Source: a virus
Direction: 5' to 3' (one strand)
DNA length: 29,688 nucleotides
Virus record (IMG/VR): IMGVR_UViG_3300046538_000107
Location: 1 to 29,688 of that record
Part shown: positions 7,526-17,687 of the stretch, piece by piece
Position numbering within the stretch: the stretch's first letter is position 1
How the letters are laid out: each line of letters begins with the position of its first letter
Notes under the pieces: generated by a model
The model's database searches: none
What the model saw: only the letters and a program-made list of their open reading frames with translations
What the model was told of the DNA's origin: nothing
Made by a program: the position numbers and the translations under genes

Positions 7526-8254
7526 ATGGTTAAGCCGAATTTCCTTTCGTGGGACACCGTTGCCAACAACAACACCGACGTCGGCGGCGTCAACATCAAT
7601 GAAGGCTGCCCACCTTCGAACGTCAACAACGGCATGCGCGAAATTATGGCGCAGGCCAGGGCAGGCGTCGATGGCAAGATGGTCTACGCCGCAAAGTCCT
7701 CGGGCTACACTGCTGTCGCGGCCGACAACAATGCTTTCCATCGCTGCACCGCAACTCTGACAGTCGCATTGACGGCGGCGGCAACCCTTGCGGCCGGGTG
7801 GCATCTGCTGGTCTTTGCGGATGGTGGTGACGTGACGATCGATCCAAACGCCTCGGAAACCATCAACGGTGCTACGACCACGATTGTCCCGAACGGCAAC
7901 ATGGCCATCGTCATCTGCGACGGCAGTAACTTTTCTGCCACCGGCATCCCGTCGCTCTGGAGCCTGATTTCCAATGACGCTGGCGCTGCGATCGGGCCAC
8001 TGCTCTCCCTATTCCGCAACTCCGCGTCTCCGGCCGCGGCAGACGTGATCGGGGGCATCAGCTTTGACGGCAGGGACAGCGCCGCCAACAAGCAGACATA
8101 CGCCACGATCGAGGGCGGCATCACCGACCCGACCAGCACAAGCGAAGACGGCTTGATAAACATGCGTGCCTTCGTCGCTGGCGTTCTCACGACCATCATC
8201 TCCATGAACGGCGCTGCCGTGACGGTCAACGGCACTCTCACGGTTACGGGCTGA
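7526..8254 (+). CDS. Tail fibre protein with conserved phage N-terminal attachment motif
   Basis: A 242-aa protein with ribosome site AAGGA five bases ahead of the ATG. The N-terminus (FLSWDTVANNNTDVGG, then EGCPPSNVNNGMREIMAQ) is the conserved virion-attachment segment of many phage tail fibres. Residues about 55-130 are a beta-rich repeat (AATLAAGWHLLVFADGGDVT) of the kind used in trimeric fibre shafts, and the end is again beta-rich (GAAVTVNGTLTVTG). It lies just before a second, AT-richer fibre gene with a 2-bp gap, so the two may be stacked fibre parts. Confidence 0.75.
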   Translation: MVKPNFLSWDTVANNNTDVGGVNINEGCPPSNVNNGMREIMAQARAGVDGKMVYAAKSSGYTAVAADNNAFHRCTATLTVALTAAATLAAGWHLLVFADGGDVTIDPNASETINGATTTIVPNGNMAIVICDGSNFSATGIPSLWSLISNDAGAAIGPLLSLFRNSASPAAADVIGGISFDGRDSAANKQTYATIEGGITDPTSTSEDGLINMRAFVAGVLTTIISMNGAAVTVNGTLTVTG

Positions 8255-9056: not shown

Positions 9057-9443
9057 TCATTCAGGGTGATCGCCAGACCACCCATTGCAGTGGCCGAGTT
9101 CGTGCCGCAGGACGGCGGCCGGCGTGGCGCCCATATAGGTATTGTCGATCGTGATCACGATGCAACTTTCAGGGAAAGCCTTCGCGCAACCATGCTGTTG
9201 AAAGCTGGTCGTATCTTTCAACCCGTATTTGGCAAACAGCCGCTGGCACGCCTTCTGCATCTGGGCTTGAGGGATTTTCGTCAGCGTGAGCTTGCCGCTG
9301 TAGGCATGGTCATAGCGAGCGGGGGGATTCCAGGTCGCGTCGTTCTTGCCCGCGTAGGACAATGCTGGGCAGAACAGCATAGCGGCGGCAACTAGACCGA
9401 CGTTGCATATATCAATGGAGCGTGCTTTGAATCGGGTAGCCAC
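9057..9443 (-). CDS. Exported protein with HELGH metallopeptidase-like motif (moron candidate)
   Basis: The product is 128 aa on the strand opposite to the late genes. The start is GTG with AGAAGGAGG five bases upstream, a very strong ribosome site. A signal peptide is visible at residues about 10-31 (VGLVAAAMLFCPALSYA). The mature part has Cys residues suited to disulphides and ends with RHELGHCNGWSGDH, an HExxH zinc motif followed by further potential ligands (D, H). Proteins with this short ending occur in rhizobial genomes and phages; I know no tested function. It has its own promoter and 5' hairpin (9471-9538), so it could be expressed from the prophage. Confidence 0.75.
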   Translation of the reverse strand: MATRFKARSIDICNVGLVAAAMLFCPALSYAGKNDATWNPPARYDHAYSGKLTLTKIPQAQMQKACQRLFAKYGLKDTTSFQQHGCAKAFPESCIVITIDNTYMGATPAAVLRHELGHCNGWSGDHPE

Positions 9444-10681: not shown

Positions 10682-10936
10682 ATGCTCGTCAACAACTGGC
10701 GCGTGGTCATGAAGCATGCCTGGTCAATCCGCTTCATGGTCCTGGCGCTGCTCTGCATCATCATCGAGCCGATCTATACTTTCGTCGCCGCAACATGGGT
10801 GGCGAAGAACATCTACATCCAACTCGCAATGTCGGCGATCACCGGCCTCCTTGCCGTCGCGGCTATCATCGCTCGCATCTTTGTTCAACAGAAAGTCTCA
10901 GGGGATTTGAATGGCAAACCGCCTTCAGAAGGGTAG
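10682..10936 (+). CDS. Holin
   Basis: An 84-aa protein with GGAG six bases ahead of the ATG. A short polar N-terminus (LVNNWRVVMKHAWSIR) is followed by two hydrophobic helices at about residues 18-40 (FMVLALLCIIIEPIYTFVAA) and 46-70 (IYIQLAMSAITGLLAVAAII). The tail is charged. This matches small two-helix holins that make inner-membrane lesions at the time of lysis. It overlaps the lysozyme start by 26 bp and begins the lysis cassette holin, endolysin, i-spanin, o-spanin. Confidence 0.85.
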   Translation: MLVNNWRVVMKHAWSIRFMVLALLCIIIEPIYTFVAATWVAKNIYIQLAMSAITGLLAVAAIIARIFVQQKVSGDLNGKPPSEG

Positions 10937-11375
10937 CGCTGCGGCTGCAATGGCCATTGCGCTCGTCGGATCGTTCGAGGGATTGCGGCAGAACGCCTAT
11001 CCGGATCCGGCGACTCGTGGGCAGCCGTGGACGATCTGTTACGGCAGCACGAACGGCGTCAAGCCTGGCGATCATAAGACGGTGGAGCAGTGCAGGGCGC
11101 TCCTGTCGCTCGAGCTGCAGAAGTATGCCGCCGGAATAGAGCATTGCGTCACGGTTCCGCTGCCGGACTCGCGCTTCGTCGCCCTGACCTCATTCGGCTA
11201 CAACGTGGGCATCAAGGCAGCTTGCGGCTCGAGCGCGATCAAGCTCATCAACGCAGGAAAGACCGCTGAAGGCTGCGAAGCGCTTTTGAAGTGGAACCGC
11301 GCCGCCGGCATCGTGTTCCCTGGCCTGACCCGTCGCCGGCAGAAGGAACGCCAGTTCTGCCTCGAGGGCATCTGA
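10911..11375 (+). CDS. Endolysin, GH24 lysozyme (muramidase)
   Basis: The gene encodes 154 aa. It hydrolyses the glycan strands of peptidoglycan at lysis. The glycoside hydrolase 24 signature is clear: E23 in SFEGLRQNAYPDP, D32 and T41 in QPWTICYGST form the expected Glu/Asp/Thr set, followed by GDHKTVEQC and the conserved C-terminal LLKWNRAAG and GLTRRRQKE. The Ala-rich N-terminus (AAAAMAIALVG) is weakly hydrophobic and could act as a signal-anchor-release segment, as in P21 lysozyme, though it is short. It overlaps the holin at the 5' end and the i-spanin at the 3' end (TGATG). Confidence 0.9.
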   Translation: MANRLQKGSAAAAMAIALVGSFEGLRQNAYPDPATRGQPWTICYGSTNGVKPGDHKTVEQCRALLSLELQKYAAGIEHCVTVPLPDSRFVALTSFGYNVGIKAACGSSAIKLINAGKTAEGCEALLKWNRAAGIVFPGLTRRRQKERQFCLEGI

Positions 11376-11743
11376 TGTTCGGGATCCTCGATTATCTCAA
11401 GCTTGGGGCAGGCGTGGCCGCTGGGCTGATGCTCTATCACCTCTATGCAATTTCGATCGGCTACCCTTCCGCAGCTCGTGAAGCCCGCGCCGGCTATGTT
11501 CTCCTCGCTGAGAAGACGGCCGCCGACGCCCGCGCCGCCGAGATGGAACGGCAGGCGAGTGCCAACAAGATCGTCGCCGACGCCTATCAGGTTCAATACC
11601 GCAATCAACTCCAAAAAGACGAACTCGTCGACGCTCAAGCCGAGCAGGAGAGGAAGGCCCATGCAGCCGATAACCTCGCTAAGGGCCGTGATGACGGTCT
11701 TGACGATAGCGATATTCAGTTCCTCTTGCGGAAGCGACCTTAA
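11375..11743 (+). CDS. i-spanin (Rz-like)
   Basis: This gene encodes 122 aa. Its ATG shares one base with the lysozyme stop (TGATG). One N-terminal transmembrane helix (about residues 8-30, LKLGAGVAAGLMLYHLYAIS) is followed by a long charged helical or coiled-coil periplasmic domain (residues about 37-105). This is the topology of the inner-membrane spanin, which joins the outer-membrane spanin to fuse both membranes in the last step of lysis. The last 83 bases overlap the o-spanin gene in another frame, the classic Rz/Rz1 arrangement. Confidence 0.85.
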   Translation: MFGILDYLKLGAGVAAGLMLYHLYAISIGYPSAAREARAGYVLLAEKTAADARAAEMERQASANKIVADAYQVQYRNQLQKDELVDAQAEQERKAHAADNLAKGRDDGLDDSDIQFLLRKRP

Positions 11744-11975
11744 GCAGTTGAAGGACGCGGCACGCAGGCAGGGCGTCATCAATGCGGGTGTGAACATCGG
11801 CCCCCAGCCAGTCGAATGCGGGACTGATACCCCGCACGCAGCGCTGATCAAGGGGGAAAGCAAGCTGAACACCCTCGACCGTGAGCGCAGCCAGCTAGAC
11901 AAGGCAAATACCAGCAAGCGGCGCTGCTTCAATTTCAACAATGACCAGGCGACAGCTTTGACTGGGACACGCTAA
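11661..11975 (+). CDS. o-spanin (Rz1-like lipoprotein)
   Basis: A 104-aa protein from ATG 11661, with AGGAAGG just upstream, inside the 3' part of the i-spanin gene. A hydrophobic signal (VMTVLTIAIFSSSC) ends in a cysteine at residue 23 that fits lipid attachment, although the lipobox is loose (Ser at -3). The mature part is polar, with charged helices and two more Cys residues. A start at the in-frame ATG for MTVLTIAIF is possible. Overlap, order and lipoprotein signal together support an outer-membrane spanin. It stops 2 bp from the convergent HNH gene. Confidence 0.8.
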   Translation: MQPITSLRAVMTVLTIAIFSSSCGSDLKQLKDAARRQGVINAGVNIGPQPVECGTDTPHAALIKGESKLNTLDRERSQLDKANTSKRRCFNFNNDQATALTGTR

Positions 11976-11977
11976 CG

Positions 11978-12580
11978 TCACGTCACTGGCTCAAGCCAAC
12001 CCCAATTGCGGCCGGTGTGGATGCGGGATATCGTTGACCGAGACACCGAGAACCGCTCCGCCAACTCGGCCAGATTGGAATTCGGCTCTTTGCCATGAAG
12101 GTCGATGATTTCGCGGACGTCGGCCTCACTTAGTTTGGCGCGCCCATGACTTTCACCCCTGGGGCGTGTGCCGTGTAGTAGTTCGTCGTCCTTGTTCTCG
12201 AACAAGGTTTTCCAGTCCAGATGCCCAGGTGCGATGCAGCCGAGATGGCCCTTGCCGCATGAATGCGCCGCTTCGTGCTCTGGCGTAGGAGGCGAGCCGT
12301 GGACCAATTCGCAGACGTATCGAGAAGCAACGACGTATTTACCATCTACCTTGAGCTGCCCGTAGCCGCCGCCGCTCTTACCGAAAGGCCACGTCAGGCA
12401 GTCGTTGCCAGTGTGGTGAAGCGCAACTTCGTGGATGAAGTTCAGGAGTTCGCCAGGAGATGCTCTGCCGCCCAGGGGGTCTCCGTGCCTCAGGAGGCGA
12501 TAGTAATGCGCGCTGCAGTAGCCCTTGGAGTCGTGGGGCTTGCCGCAATCTGGAATCGAGCATAAACGGGGTTTAGCCAT
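11978..12580 (-). CDS. HNH homing-type endonuclease with C-terminal HTH
   Basis: This gene encodes 200 aa. The start is ATG 12580, with AGGA six bases upstream. Residues 7-25 form a zinc cluster (C7, C12, C22, H25). Residues about 60-130 are an HNH-type core with H106, C108, H112, C115 and H120 (AHSCGKGHLGCIAPGHLDW). Residues about 150-195 are a helix-turn-helix (LAELAERFSVSRSTISRIHT) for DNA recognition. It lies against the late operon between the spanins and the fibre gene, 2 bp from the o-spanin stop, as free-standing homing endonucleases often do. Promoter and hairpin at 12609-12677 would drive it independently. Confidence 0.85.
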   Translation of the reverse strand: MAKPRLCSIPDCGKPHDSKGYCSAHYYRLLRHGDPLGGRASPGELLNFIHEVALHHTGNDCLTWPFGKSGGGYGQLKVDGKYVVASRYVCELVHGSPPTPEHEAAHSCGKGHLGCIAPGHLDWKTLFENKDDELLHGTRPRGESHGRAKLSEADVREIIDLHGKEPNSNLAELAERFSVSRSTISRIHTGRNWGWLEPVT

Positions 12581-12608
12581 TATTGATCCTTTCACGATCA
12601 TTTTGGTC

Positions 12609-12651
12609 AGAACCCGTCGCGAGCCTGCAAGCTCCGGCGGGTTCGCTATTT
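12609..12651. repeat. 43-bp hairpin cassette, copy 2
   Basis: It has the same flanks as 9471-9513 (AGAACCCGTCGCG and GGCGGGTTCGCTATTT). The inner 14 bases differ and pair as GAGC with GCTC. Both copies keep the total length at 43 bp and lie between a reverse-strand cargo gene and a forward fibre gene. Confidence 0.8.
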
Positions 12652-12677
12652 GTACCCCAAACATCAAGGAATCACAA
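12649..12677 (-). promoter_or_regulatory. Predicted promoter for the HNH endonuclease gene
   Basis: On the reverse strand TTGTGA (12672-12677) and TACAAA (12649-12654) are 17 bases apart. Transcription would start near 12642, at the hairpin, leaving a leader of about 62 nt to the ATG at 12580. The -35 box lies directly beside the start of the forward fibre gene. Confidence 0.55.
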
Positions 12678-12678
12678 T

Positions 12679-15210
12679 ATGATGCTTGGAATCGGCTTGG
12701 CCCTCACACAGCAGAGGGGCGGCGGGGGCGGTGCAGCTCCATTCCCGTCCTTCGCCTACCAGACGGAAACCAACACGCTCGCCGCGGCTTTCGCCGTTGC
12801 CCCGACCACGGCCCGCAAGCGCACCATGGATCGCGCTATGCGTCGGCTGAAGACGAGCGGTCTGCTTGCAAAAGCTCGGTGGATCAGCTTTGTCGGGGCG
12901 GATCTGGATGCTACGCTCACCAACTGGAAAACGCCCTCAGAGAAGGCGACCGCTGTAGGGACGCTGCCTTTTACGGCGGACCAGACCTATTCCGGCAACG
13001 TTGGGCTAAACTACATCAACTCAGGCGTACCGGCTAACGCGCTATCGCAGAACGATGTATCGCTTTTCACCTGGTATCAGACCGGCCACATGAAGCCAAC
13101 GGCAACGCAAGCTGGCTCAACGATGGGCGTTATCAATGCTTCGAGTCAAGGTCTAGCTCTCGTTCCTTTCGCCGCTACAAGCGGCATCACGGTACGGTGT
13201 GCCAGCGCAAGCGTGGTTGTCACGAATGTCAGCGACGGTTTCGGTTTGATCGGGGCGTCGCGAAACAATTCAGCTAACTTCGATATCTACTACAACGGTT
13301 CCCTCAGAAGCACCAGCACCAGCACGAGCGTCGCGCTACCGGCCCTTAACATCTATTTTGGCGGTCTGAACAACAACGGCTCTATCACCAACGGCAACGC
13401 CGTTACGATGGCGTTTCAGTGGCTCGGCCAAGCTTTGACGCAAACCGAGGTCAAGACGCTTACCGCCATCGTCGGTGAATATCTCGAAAGCATCAGGTAC
13501 GGGGAATATTATAACGAAGAGCCGGGGATCGGCACCGGGTCGATCAGCAAGCAATGCATCGCCTATGGCCTCACTGGTCAGGCCGTAACCTTCGCCGTCC
13601 AGGCCGCGAGGCAGGGGAAAACCGTCGCCATCATCGGCGGCTGGCGTGATCGCTTCTCGTTCGGCATGGCCGGCGGCGGTCTCGGCTATACCGACTTCGA
13701 CAGCCCGACCGCTCTCGGTGGTCTCCCCCGTTGGATCATCACCGATTGCAACAGCCAGGAAGGCACGAGCGATACAGCGAGCGGCACGAATCCCGCCGCA
13801 TACAAATTCAACCCGAAGCGGTTCAACCGGACCTGCAAGAAGCTACTGACGCAGTACAATATCCCGGTCTATCTCGCCAACGGCGTTGCATCCGTTAGCA
13901 AGACTGGCGCTGCGATCACCAGCATCACCACGACAGATGGGCGCACGGTTACGGCCAGCCAATGGCATGACGGCAGCTACGAGCAAGACCTTATACGGCA
14001 CACTACCGGCATAGGCTGGACCAAGGGCCGAGAAGCTGCTGGCTCAGGAAACGAAGCGAACAACGGCGTTCGCGATGCTACGACCGCAGCTCAACCGCTC
14101 GATAGCCTCGGCGGCGTTGTCGTCACTGATCCTTGGACAACGCCCGGTGTTACAGCCAGTGGATTGCTCCCTGGCATCCAAGCCATCAAGTCGACATTTA
14201 CGCCAGCGCTAGACAACTACCCAACGGTCGGATCTGCGGACACTCGCCTTCCTGCCTACAACTTCCGCCTGACCTTCACGAACAGCGCGCTTCTGCGCCT
14301 GGCTCTACCGAACACTCCGCCCGCTGGCTTCGACGCGGCAAACTACGAGACATATTTACGTTGGATGGACGGCGCCACCACCGCCGGCAACCCAATCGGA
14401 ACGGGCGATGTCTTCAAGCTGGACGAACTACAGGGTACGGGCCGCTATGACCTTAACAAGCAAGGAATTCTCTCTACAAACCTGGTCGGCGTGAACCACA
14501 ACTACCCAACCATGACGTATGCCGAGCGCGAAGTGTACTGGAAGCTGCAGTGGAACCACATCATGGGCCTCTGGTATCTGCTGCAATACCACGCAGACGC
14601 TCGCGTTCCCGCCGCCCTGAGATCGGCCGCCCTTGGCTGGGGCATGTGCCCCGATCACTATTACTCACATCATGAGAACGATGAACCTTTCTTCATGCCG
14701 CAGATGTATATCCGCGAGGCTATCCGTCTGTCGGGATCGGTGGTGATGAACGGCATCAACATGGGGCAGACAGACGGTCAGGTTCCAACGCTCGGCGACC
14801 ATACGGTCAGCGTGGCGAGCTACAATATGGACAGCCACTCGACGCAGGTCATCGCCCACGAAACCAGCGCCGGCGTTTGGCAGACCCGTCACGAGGGCGG
14901 CATGTTTGTTTCGTCTGGCGGCAGCAACGGCGTTTCGCCGCTGCCCTATGAGATCTTCGTCCCGAAGGTCGCTGAGTGCACCAACGTCTCGTGCTCGTTC
15001 GGCGGCTCGCTGACGCACGTCGCCTATGGTGCTAGTCGAATGGAGTTCACAGCTATGCAGACGGCGCAATCTATGGGCCTGGCCGCTGCTCTGGCGATCG
15101 ACGGCGACAACATCATCCAGAACGTCAGCTACTCGACCCTGAGAACGGCATTGCTCGCCAGCGCCTCCCTTAGCGGTGAGGTTGCGCCGGTTCTGCCGCA
15201 GACGACCTAA
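12679..15210 (+). CDS. Tail fibre/spike with lectin-like domain fused to FAD-dependent oxidoreductase-like domain
   Basis: The 843-aa product starts at ATG 12679, with AAGGA eight bases upstream. Residues about 1-30 are a short virion-type lead with a Gly run. Residues about 120-275 look like a concanavalin/LamG beta sandwich (FDIYYNGSLRSTST, AFQWLGQALTQTEVKTL). Residues about 289-835 match the FAD-dependent oxidoreductase family PF12831 along their whole length: YGLTGQAVTFAVQAARQGKT (nucleotide-binding turn, G297 and G300), GGGLGYTDFD, DGSYEQDL (431-438), GREA (449-452), ERE and YIREAIRLSG, MDSH (717-720) and YGASRMEF (783-790). The first Gly of the usual GxGxxG and the acidic residue ending strand 2 are not conserved, so FAD binding needs testing. 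It is the last gene of the fibre block. Presumed role: binding and modifying a host surface glycan. Confidence 0.8.
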   Translation: MMLGIGLALTQQRGGGGGAAPFPSFAYQTETNTLAAAFAVAPTTARKRTMDRAMRRLKTSGLLAKARWISFVGADLDATLTNWKTPSEKATAVGTLPFTADQTYSGNVGLNYINSGVPANALSQNDVSLFTWYQTGHMKPTATQAGSTMGVINASSQGLALVPFAATSGITVRCASASVVVTNVSDGFGLIGASRNNSANFDIYYNGSLRSTSTSTSVALPALNIYFGGLNNNGSITNGNAVTMAFQWLGQALTQTEVKTLTAIVGEYLESIRYGEYYNEEPGIGTGSISKQCIAYGLTGQAVTFAVQAARQGKTVAIIGGWRDRFSFGMAGGGLGYTDFDSPTALGGLPRWIITDCNSQEGTSDTASGTNPAAYKFNPKRFNRTCKKLLTQYNIPVYLANGVASVSKTGAAITSITTTDGRTVTASQWHDGSYEQDLIRHTTGIGWTKGREAAGSGNEANNGVRDATTAAQPLDSLGGVVVTDPWTTPGVTASGLLPGIQAIKSTFTPALDNYPTVGSADTRLPAYNFRLTFTNSALLRLALPNTPPAGFDAANYETYLRWMDGATTAGNPIGTGDVFKLDELQGTGRYDLNKQGILSTNLVGVNHNYPTMTYAEREVYWKLQWNHIMGLWYLLQYHADARVPAALRSAALGWGMCPDHYYSHHENDEPFFMPQMYIREAIRLSGSVVMNGINMGQTDGQVPTLGDHTVSVASYNMDSHSTQVIAHETSAGVWQTRHEGGMFVSSGGSNGVSPLPYEIFVPKVAECTNVSCSFGGSLTHVAYGASRMEFTAMQTAQSMGLAAALAIDGDNIIQNVSYSTLRTALLASASLSGEVAPVLPQTT

Positions 15211-15350: not shown

Positions 15351-15779
15351 ATGACCTCAAATGACGATATTCTCCGAGCCCTTGGGCGTGTCGAAGGCAG
15401 ACTTACCGGCATAGAGGAGAATGTTTCGCTTCTCCGCAATGAGTTGAGCGATGAGAAGGACAATGCTCACCAAAGCCGGGCTGTAATCCACCAGCGCCTC
15501 GACGAGCAGATGCGGCAGATCAACTTCCTCGACAAGGTGGTGGAGATCAGCAGCGGAGTTGACGTTACTCTTCGCGAGGAGATCAAGGGGCTAAAGGCTA
15601 CGGTGGAGAAGAACCACGATGCCACACAGCCGGCCTTGGAGGACTGGAAAAGAATGAAATCGATCGGTTACGGCATATCCGGCCTGATCGCGTTTGCTGG
15701 GCTCACCGTAGGCGCTGTGGCCACATGGGCGAGTGACGGCGCGGTCTCAGCCTTGAGGCATTGGCTGAAAATAAATTGA
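15351..15779 (+). CDS. DUF1515-like coiled-coil membrane protein
   Basis: The gene encodes 142 aa. The start could be ATG 15351 or TTG 15348; GCGGGA lies close upstream. Residues about 5-95 are charged heptad-like helix (GRVEGRLTGIEENVSLLRNE), and residues about 102-125 form one transmembrane segment (YGISGLIAFAGLTVGAVATW). This resembles DUF1515, a short family known mainly from rhizobia and their phages with no assigned function. The topology also resembles proteins in lysis or structural positions. It ends the rightward late block, 3 bp from the next convergent gene. Confidence 0.65.
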   Translation: MTSNDDILRALGRVEGRLTGIEENVSLLRNELSDEKDNAHQSRAVIHQRLDEQMRQINFLDKVVEISSGVDVTLREEIKGLKATVEKNHDATQPALEDWKRMKSIGYGISGLIAFAGLTVGAVATWASDGAVSALRHWLKIN

Positions 15780-16178: not shown

Positions 16179-16388
16179 TTTGCAAAACGCGACGGAAAAG
16201 CTGCAAAACATTCTCTTGACGAATCCGCTCAAGTCGTTGATCTGAAAGTAAAGCGGGCGTGGCGAAACTGGTAGACGCAAGGGACTTAAAATCCGTTAGA
16301 AATACTGCGTTTGCTGGATTTCTACTGCAAAACATACCATATTTTACTACCGAAAACGATGGAACAAAGCGAGATTTGCAAAACATTT
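16179..16388. other. attP: attP: tRNA-Leu core flanked by arm-type integrase sites
   Basis: Four direct copies of TGCAAAAC lie near 16181, 16202, 16326 and 16378 (the last three read CAAAACAT), two on each side of a tRNA-Leu fragment at 16253-16294. This is the layout of P and P' arms around a core. The integrase gene ends at 16388, inside the right arm. Crossover is expected in or near the anticodon loop, about 16284-16294, where identity to a tRNA gene ends. Because phage genes flank both arms, the site has not been split by integration. Confidence 0.75.
16253..16294 (+). other. 5' half of tRNA-Leu(UAA) carried in attP (not a complete tRNA)
   Basis: The fragment begins GCGGGCGTGG (acceptor stem), continues through a canonical leucine D arm (GCGAAACTGGTAGACGC) and the anticodon stem-loop AGGGA-CTTAAAA-TCC with anticodon TAA, then stops matching a tRNA. 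The 3' half is absent. A TTGACG hexamer lies at 16216-16221, but no clear -10 box follows. Confidence 0.8.
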
Positions 16389-17458
16389 CAACGTTTCTTT
16401 TTGCTGTTGAAGGCACGGACAACCTTGCTTTCATTCTCGACGTGCCGGGTATAGTGAGCGCCCATCCGCTCTGACCGGTCACCAAGCGCCGCGGCGACAT
16501 CGCCGATCTCCACGCCCGCCCGCCTCAGGTCGGCAGCATAGGTCGTTCTCAGGCCGTGCAGCGTGGTCCCCGCGCCAATCTTCCCATCCCGCTCCAGATC
16601 CCGCAGGTAGTGGCTGACCGCCGTCTGCATCTGCTTCTCGCCTTCCCATGGCGTGCCGTCCTGGCGCGTGCAAATCTCCAAAGCAGTCTTGTCCAGCTTG
16701 TCGATATATTCCTGCAGTTCCTCGACGACAGGGACCATCGTGTTTTCCTGATTCTTCCTCGCCACCTTGCGGAAGCACTTCCACCCATGCTGCGGGTGAG
16801 GGGCGTAGTCCGACCAGCGGAGCTTGACGAGCGTCTGCCCGCGGTAGCCGGCGTGTCTGGCAATGATCATCGGAGTGAGGAGGTATCGAGGCGCGTTGTC
16901 CCGCACATATGCCCATTCCTGAGCGAACCATTCCCGATTGGCGTTGGGATCTGACGTGTGGGCCTTGTCGAGCCCCTTGGCGGGGTTGGCGCGCATCTTG
17001 CGGCGCTTGACGGCCTGGCTGAACATCGATGACAGCGCGGCGACCATCTGGTCAGCGAATCGGGGCCATTTCTCTTTGGCGCACCGATCGCGGATGTCGT
17101 AGATATCGGCCTGCTCTATGTCGTCGAGGGGGTAATCGAACTCAGGACGCAGCCAGCCGAAGGCGTCGGTATAGTCCTTCTTCGTGGCGGCGGCGAGCGT
17201 CTGGTATTTCGGGCAATCGTTTTCGAACCAGTAGACGAGGGCTCCGAGCGTGCCGTCAGCGTAGGTTCTCTTTTCAGTGAGCTTCCGGCGGCCATTGTAG
17301 GCGCCTATGAAGTCCGGCATAGCCATGCGCTTTTCGAGATCGGCCCGCGTTCCATCGAAGCCGCCAATCAGTTTCTCCTTCGTAGCGCGCACATAGACGT
17401 ACCACTTCCCGCGCGCCTTGATGACGTTAAGCCCTTCCAGCTTCACTTTGACCACCAT
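16388..17458 (-). CDS. int: Tyrosine-recombinase integrase
   Basis: The product is 356 aa, starting at ATG 17458 with GGGGAG seven bases upstream. It joins attP and attB and, with an excision factor, reverses the reaction. Residues about 1-60 form an arm-binding N-terminal region, about 65-165 the core-binding SAM-like domain (KDYTDAFGWLRPE), and about 170-350 the catalytic domain. R206 (HAGYRGQTL), H301 and R304 (LHGLRTTYA) and nucleophile Y336 (GAHYTRH) are visible. The usual second His/Trp before the Tyr is replaced by Asp (LGDRS). The gene lies directly beside attP and at the end of the leftward operon. Confidence 0.92.
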   Translation of the reverse strand: MVVKVKLEGLNVIKARGKWYVYVRATKEKLIGGFDGTRADLEKRMAMPDFIGAYNGRRKLTEKRTYADGTLGALVYWFENDCPKYQTLAAATKKDYTDAFGWLRPEFDYPLDDIEQADIYDIRDRCAKEKWPRFADQMVAALSSMFSQAVKRRKMRANPAKGLDKAHTSDPNANREWFAQEWAYVRDNAPRYLLTPMIIARHAGYRGQTLVKLRWSDYAPHPQHGWKCFRKVARKNQENTMVPVVEELQEYIDKLDKTALEICTRQDGTPWEGEKQMQTAVSHYLRDLERDGKIGAGTTLHGLRTTYAADLRRAGVEIGDVAAALGDRSERMGAHYTRHVENESKVVRAFNSKKKR

Positions 17459-17687
17459 AGAGCCGCTCCCCGAATTTCCGCTTCGGGGCGGCATCCTGCT
17501 TGTTTGGATCGAGAGACGCCAGCCATTCGTCAAGGCGCTGGCGAAGATATCTTTCGCCCCTTGTGGATTCCGTGAACTTCAGCGGCCGAACGGGGCAAAC
17601 CTTCTTGAAGGTCTCGACACAGACGCCGCAATATGCAGCGGCTGATTTCTGGTCCATGGCGGCCGGCCAATATGGGATGTCAGCCAT
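17427..17687 (-). CDS. Excisionase-like DNA-binding protein
   Basis: An 86-aa protein with an AGGGAGGGG ribosome site just before ATG 17687. The centre reads as a winged helix-turn-helix of the MerR/AlpA/excisionase type (DQKSAAAYCGVCVETFKKVC, then RYLRQRLDEWLASL). The C-terminus is basic (PKRKFGERL). It overlaps the integrase start by 32 bp and lies immediately upstream of it, the normal place of a recombination directionality factor. A general regulator is the alternative. Confidence 0.75.
   Translation of the reverse strand: MADIPYWPAAMDQKSAAAYCGVCVETFKKVCPVRPLKFTESTRGERYLRQRLDEWLASLDPNKQDAAPKRKFGERLYGGQSEAGRA

Follow-up and report, generated by a model that had tools for sequence, protein, structure and literature searches.

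The enzymes that phages direct at the sugar coats of their hosts are, to our knowledge, hydrolases, lyases and esterases. What a phage would do with a flavin-dependent oxidoreductase domain fused to a lectin-like domain is the question raised by one gene in an IMG/VR virus record of 29,688 bases (the whole stretch analysed here, hereafter "the window"; Table 1). The left part of the window is filled with virion protein genes, including matches to a PHROG virion structural protein and a DNA ejection protein. Further rightward follow a VanY-like gene, a fibre-like gene, a holin-lysozyme-Rz-like cassette (the Rz-like name is given by position and composition, without a family match), an HNH-like gene on the minus strand, the gene in question, a DUF1515-like gene and an integrase gene on the minus strand. 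The gene under study therefore belongs to a temperate phage, as the integrase indicates, and it ends the late block right next to that integrase. The host is probably rhizobial; the nearest named relatives are Rhizobium phages. A first-pass annotation had placed the gene in the fibre block, which our map shows to be wrong, since the holin, lysozyme, Rz-like and HNH-like genes separate it from the fibre-like gene.

Table 1. Features of the window and of the 843-aa protein (residue numbers refer to this protein).
Feature	Position	Strand	Basis or remark
Fibre-like gene	7526-8254		
Lysis cassette, upstream border of the slot	10682-11975	+	holin 10682-10936, endolysin 10911-11375, Rz-like 11445-11975
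HNH-endonuclease-like gene between Rz-like and slot gene	11978-12667	-	sequence motifs
Shine-Dalgarno-like AAGGA 5' of the ATG, a fair ribosome-binding site	12666-12670	+	sequence
Slot gene: tag, helical/jelly-roll lectin-like domain, PF12831 flavoenzyme domain	12679-15210	+	sequence, hmmscan, AlphaFold
N-terminal tag, residues 1-19, MMLGIGLALTQQRGGGGGA	12679-12735	+	pLDDT; like tags on other slot proteins
Helical and jelly-roll (ConA/LamG-like) domain, residues 26-279	12754-13515	+	model, structure matches, PHROG
Dinucleotide-binding beta-alpha-beta unit, residues 288-321 (AYGLTGQA ... AIIGG)	13540-13641	+	alignment, model
PF12831 FAD_oxidored domain, residues 296-825	13564-15153	+	hmmscan, model of the C-terminal domain
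RDRFSFGM, residues 323-330	13645-13668	+	alignment; one residue shorter than closest relatives
DUF1515-like coiled-coil/TM protein, conserved downstream border of the slot	15351-15779	+	below Pfam cut-off
Tyrosine integrase	16388-17533	-	Pfam

In two related contigs (L010 and L013) the start codon of the corresponding gene overlaps the stop codon of the Rz-like gene (ATGA), which supports its expression as part of the late transcript. No promoter-like site was seen 5' of the gene in the window. A terminator-like hairpin (12619-12646) lies just upstream, with hairpins being no more numerous than in shuffled sequences. The HNH-like gene is absent at that place in both L010 and L013; it is 42% identical to an ORF in a Paracoccus methylarcula contig (L020) and yields only weak HTH matches in Pfam. 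A further minus-strand ORF (9057-9443), antisense to the late genes, lies between the fibre-like gene and the lysis genes and is 71% identical to an ORF at the same place in contig L011.

The protein consists of three parts. The N-terminal tag combines an alternating hydrophobic stretch with poly-Gly, and its residues 1-16 are predicted to be disordered (pLDDT <50). An AlphaFold2 model built on a 72-row alignment otherwise shows one confident fold for the full-length protein (mean pLDDT 90.4, pTM 0.93). The lectin-like part forms a beta sandwich in the model, as previously proposed, and matches jelly-roll/ConA-like structures both in the PDB (including domain 4 of the arabinanase AbnA, 5hon) and among predicted viral structures, along with a weak PHROG match (1.3e-5). 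In the viral structure library the neighbours of residues 26-279 are "YapH" (Sinorhizobium phage phiN3; rmsd 1.9 over 253 columns) and further phage proteins. The PF12831 assignment of the first-pass annotation was likewise confirmed nearly end to end (hmmscan E 6.1e-39, profile positions 5-416 of 416, 134.9 bits at a gathering cut-off of 27). Residues 285-843 modelled alone reached a pLDDT of 93.4. Their matches to solved FAD enzymes have a probability of 1.00, and most of the PDB hits are flavoproteins. The Foldseek matches mainly cover the FAD-binding core (~190 residues, TM at most ~0.3), and no solved structure in the PDB covers the rest of the domain well. Neither coiled coil, beta-helix nor known fibre anchor was seen in the window protein, and no tail-fibre PHROG matched. 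Searches of PDB sequences with phmmer and profiles returned no relative, cellular PF12831 members found chance-level matches only, and NCBIfam gave no match. Neither PDB sequences nor the literature yielded a solved structure or a characterised protein from this PF12831 subfamily, and the literature search found no paper on the window protein itself. Scanning IMG/VR with the single sequence retrieved nothing; relatives were retrieved by alignment-based scans.

Is the flavin site intact? The beta-alpha-beta unit is, in the model, complete (strand 288-296, helix 300-311, strand 316-319). An alignment with 50 cellular proteins gives VYGxTxxG, not GxGxxG, as the consensus turn of the family. The window protein (AYGLTGQA) keeps G297 and T299, and its third Gly is replaced by Ala302, which also occurs in cellular members. 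It had been suggested that the first Gly and the acidic residue are lost and that the altered turn might mark an inactive module. The first Gly is G297, however, and the usual acidic position (Gly320) is Gly in nearly the whole clade; even the cellular PF12831 members do not consistently have an acidic residue behind the second strand. The GGWR motif with this Gly is shared by nearly all of the phage clade and by its Tat-exported cellular sisters, so the turn does not speak against the putative activity. The motifs DGSYEQDL, GREA, YIREAIRL, MDSH and YGASRMEF, already listed in the first-pass annotation, turned out to be the most conserved columns of the family.

An explanation which we consider unlikely is that the PF12831 fold merely serves as scaffold or adhesin and has lost FAD binding or catalysis. 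The window copy carries two uncommon changes that point this way: Q525P, and G328F together with a one-residue deletion, by which residues 323-330 lose one Gly of the family GGM motif. A branch formed by L104 and L109 points the same way; it lacks the D-[AG]-SYE-x-D-L motif and keeps 11-12 of 41 conserved positions, so decay does happen in this clade. Against a binding-only module, 39 of 41 near-invariant family positions are kept in the window protein, including the SYE..D, GRE, Y-[VI]-RE, MDSH and RME motifs, and the Gly at the acidic position is common to the exported cellular sisters. Moreover, the FAD domain evolves under strong purifying selection: omega is 0.05-0.11 between close relatives, values that are approximate because synonymous sites are near saturation and that are about as low as in the lectin domain. 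Conserved positions and low omega argue that a function is likely maintained in the lectin-FAD group; the window copy itself could be altered, given the deletion at G328 and the change at Q525.

The position between the lysis genes and the DUF1515-like gene proved to be a slot with exchangeable content. A scan with the DUF1515-like protein fetched 70 contigs, and on ~50 related contigs similar tags were found at this place. Among slot genes of at least 400 aa, 50 of 55 open with a tag that resembles MMNAISLALT / MSMMLGLSLGIT, counted by a pattern that was written after the tags had been seen; the window tag, MMLGIGLALTQQRGGGGG, is of the same kind. The bodies behind the tags comprise one SGNH/GDSL-like cluster (47 proteins), two beta-helix proteins, two FAD proteins and single others, among them GDSL and fn3 proteins. 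FAD is thus a minority body, and one of its two cases is the contig of L010. RHEph01 was considered as a further carrier of the window's tag and dropped; its N-terminus reads MINRRSLLWSTYLSSGGGG.

The same arrangement was found in named phages. Full-length relatives are encoded by RHph_Y55 (QIG68875.1), RHph_I72 (QIG76482.1) and RHph_N3_19 (QIG73101.1), all deposited, two of them already annotated as FAD dependent oxidoreductase without a proposed function. They share the three-part architecture over 97% of the length at 38-44% identity. Unlike the window gene they carry unrelated tags and lie among terminase, portal and head genes instead of after lysis genes, at three different places in the head region. 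In sister phages whose portal genes are 83-98% identical, a different protein occupies the very same place; it resembles its counterpart over the first 20-35 residues and differs in the body. In the Y55 lineage a FAD body (Y55, MGSLASPLVTQKLGRKL) faces an SGNH-like body (Y17/I36/RHEph04; Y17 tag MGSLGSALTQKLVKKL) and a BNR_4 plus lectin body (N17, MASLASALTKKLARK), the SGNH-like call being based on motifs and on the NCBI name "lysophospholipase L1-like esterase" of relatives, with Pfam silent. In the I72 lineage the lectin-FAD body (I72, MGKNAGALAYGSPPFRIGAGGQLR) is replaced by a body that is GDSL-like by motif (I65, MGKKNAGALAFGSPSFRIGAGGRLR) or by that of TM26, and in the N3_19 lineage FAD (N3_19, MTIYKGLSAITNMYYGSTAISGMYVG) alternates with BNR_4 plus lectin (N3_13/I3_11; N3_13 tag MTIYKGSSSVSNVYYGSTAISSMYVG). 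Local tag alignments gave E 1e-8 (N3_19/N3_13) and 3e-4 (I72/I65), and every pair scored above the best of 500 shuffles, I72/TM26 narrowly (34.5 vs 32.5). The converse also occurs, in phages that are not related to each other: L013 and N3_19 share 86% body identity and L010 and Y55 74%, in both cases behind unrelated tags. Thus, tags follow the phage and bodies travel. The jelly-roll domain that opens the FAD proteins also forms the C-terminus of the BNR slot proteins (E 4e-23). As a stand-alone gene it was seen with its own tag just before a FAD gene (L104:7148-7945) and as the gene that immediately follows the portal gene of Microcystis phage Mwe-JY13 (L019:2343-3254).

Where did the FAD body come from? 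In a tree of 70 FAD domains (quick search, SH-aLRT support only) the 19 phage proteins of the lectin-FAD type fall into a single clade (90), whose sisters are eight Tat-type proteins (99% SH-aLRT for both together) from Agrobacterium, Rhizobium, Methylobacterium, Sphingobium and Sphingomonas. Their twin-arginine signals, e.g. MVSRRSFLGG and ISRRHFLAGT, were read from the sequence; such signals are expected for proteins that are exported folded with their cofactor. These cellular relatives (L021-L028, WP_209160096.1; Agrobacterium, Rhizobium, Methylobacterium, Sphingomonadales) belong to the same clade and have the same GGWR motif, but they are single-domain proteins with a twin-arginine signal instead of tag and lectin domain. 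Four other fibre-like phage proteins (L110, L111, L114, L115) also carry PF12831 as C-terminal domain; they differ in their N-terminal parts, show no detectable shared lectin domain and form a separate clade (100) elsewhere in the tree. The L111 protein has tail-fibre PHROG matches before its FAD domain, and L110 a fibre-like coiled-coil stretch, as judged by eye. PF12831 has consequently entered phage proteins on two or more occasions, with L105-L107 as a possible additional case. Among 298 Rhizobiaceae genomes 16 matched, none of them over the full length, so this is not a general host gene. The genes next to cellular relatives comprise 91 Pfam families over 83 neighbours, none occurring in more than three; TonB receptors, SusD, GH3, fucosidase and sulfatase appear in one or two cases. 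With no strong functional theme in these neighbours, we do not claim that the cellular relatives are parts of polysaccharide utilisation loci.

On balance, we favour the interpretation that the window gene encodes an exchangeable, tag-anchored surface enzyme which acts on glycans of the host of a temperate, probably rhizobial phage and uses a flavin as catalyst. The short lineage-specific peptide would dock the protein on the particle, the jelly-roll domain, judging from its fold, would bind envelope or extracellular polysaccharide, and the PF12831 domain would hold FAD and chemically alter the glycan. The simplest change would be oxidation of a sugar hydroxyl, by which the phage may attack the sugar coat without cutting it; a redox-neutral flavin reaction is the other option. 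To work on a virion, a flavin oxidase has to pass its electrons to an acceptor such as O2; here O2 or an envelope carrier might serve, and a redox-neutral reaction would avoid the need. In its slot the protein stands where sister phages have an SGNH/GDSL-like esterase, a beta-helix protein or a BNR protein. The earlier view of a tail fibre with an enzyme domain survives in part: esterase-like, BNR and beta-helix proteins stand behind the same or similar tags in the slot, and other phages fuse PF12831 to tail-fibre-like N-termini, which strongly, if indirectly, favours an analogue of tail enzymes. The fibre itself is not supported: neither a coiled coil nor a fibre anchor can be recognised in the window protein, and the three named phages have the gene in their head regions. 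A virion-anchored location is probable. The head-gene location in Y55, I72 and N3_19 and the changes G328F and Q525P count against an enzyme on the virion. In a more specific scenario, which we put forward as a tentative possibility only, phages of rhizobia and related bacteria would bear on their virions a flavin enzyme that opens or marks the extracellular or O-antigen polysaccharide of the host by oxidation. A plug-in tag would make this enzyme interchangeable with esterases and with BNR or beta-helix proteins, and adsorption proteins of phages would have acquired flavoenzymes on two or more occasions.

Alternatively, the protein could be a soluble enzyme that acts at lysis, off the particle, and strips or alters the glycans of neighbouring cells, the role suggested for additional depolymerases in some KP36-type phages (PMC6872550). 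The gene does lie 3' of the lysis cassette in the window lineage and is coupled to it in L010 and L013. However, bodies that are exchanged behind a short conserved tag are the hallmark of docking, and the gene stands among head or tail genes in several phages, so that we regard release at lysis as improbable. Lysogenic conversion, i.e. expression from the prophage of an enzyme that alters the surface or metabolism of the lysogen, appears very improbable. A place between lysis genes and integrase is a usual one for such cargo in a temperate phage, and the upstream hairpin would fit, its kind being no more frequent than in shuffles. By contrast, the window protein shows no signal peptide, its gene lacks an upstream promoter-like site, lies on the strand of the late genes and is coupled to these in relatives, and full-length relatives have their copy inside the head operon.

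The favoured tag-anchored enzyme has a described counterpart. KP34-type Klebsiella phages encode, past their endolysin gene, an enzyme body that is preceded by a conserved MALxxLV-type peptide, and SP6 and K1-5 show the same pattern of peptide plus swapped body (PMC6872550). With the second receptor-binding proteins (RBPs) of KP34-type phages and the SP6/K1-5 tailspikes the window protein shares a short, conserved, hydrophobic N-terminal peptide and a swapped body, putatively enzymatic here, as well as a gene that interrupts synteny and can lie beyond the endolysin gene. A lineage-conserved short peptide with a changing body was found in the three named lineages and in the window lineage, the bodies being SGNH/GDSL, BNR_4, beta-helix and PF12831 overall. 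In contrast, the known KP34/SP6 bodies are mostly beta-helical hydrolases and lyases, and the window protein combines a jelly-roll with a flavoenzyme fold and has no beta-helix. By analogy it may work like a second RBP of the KP34/SP6 type, and we do not file it as a member.

Phage enzymes described for host sugar coats are hydrolases, lyases and esterases (PMC6872550), and a FAD-dependent oxidoreductase in alphaproteobacterial phages is mentioned once, for T4-like phages and without detail (PMC10783043). The FAD domain had already been named in Rhizobium phage annotations; the slot, the swapping of tags and the repeated recruitment are new here. If true, a flavoenzyme in an exchangeable slot adds redox chemistry to phage adsorption. 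Our results also provide a lead on the exported cellular PF12831 family and a set of tag-plus-body proteins encoded by rhizobial phages, which lend themselves to simple gene-removal tests of their role.

Several further PF12831 proteins were encountered. In a phage protein of 2427 aa (L109:3327-10610) a PF12831 domain is combined with Ig-like, jelly-roll and GH16 (E 2.6e-15) domains. The SYE-D-L and GRE motifs are no longer present in its FAD domain, which may therefore be inactive. The phage proteins L105:7926-10040 and L107:7926-10052 start with MGxLDAPGxxxxxADxLYA followed by PF12831; L107 has a golvesin C-terminal domain as well, and L105 branches apart from the lectin-FAD clade. In the Paracoccus methylarcula contig a 1526-aa protein (L020:10639-15219) with glycosyltransferase, pyruvyl-transferase and FrhB domains, possibly a surface-glycan gene product, adjoins the FAD gene. 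On plasmid pAtAB2-73d of Rhizobium sp. AB2/73 a Tat-type PF12831 gene (L005:9905-11653) lies between a virA-like sensor kinase gene and virB1-virB11.
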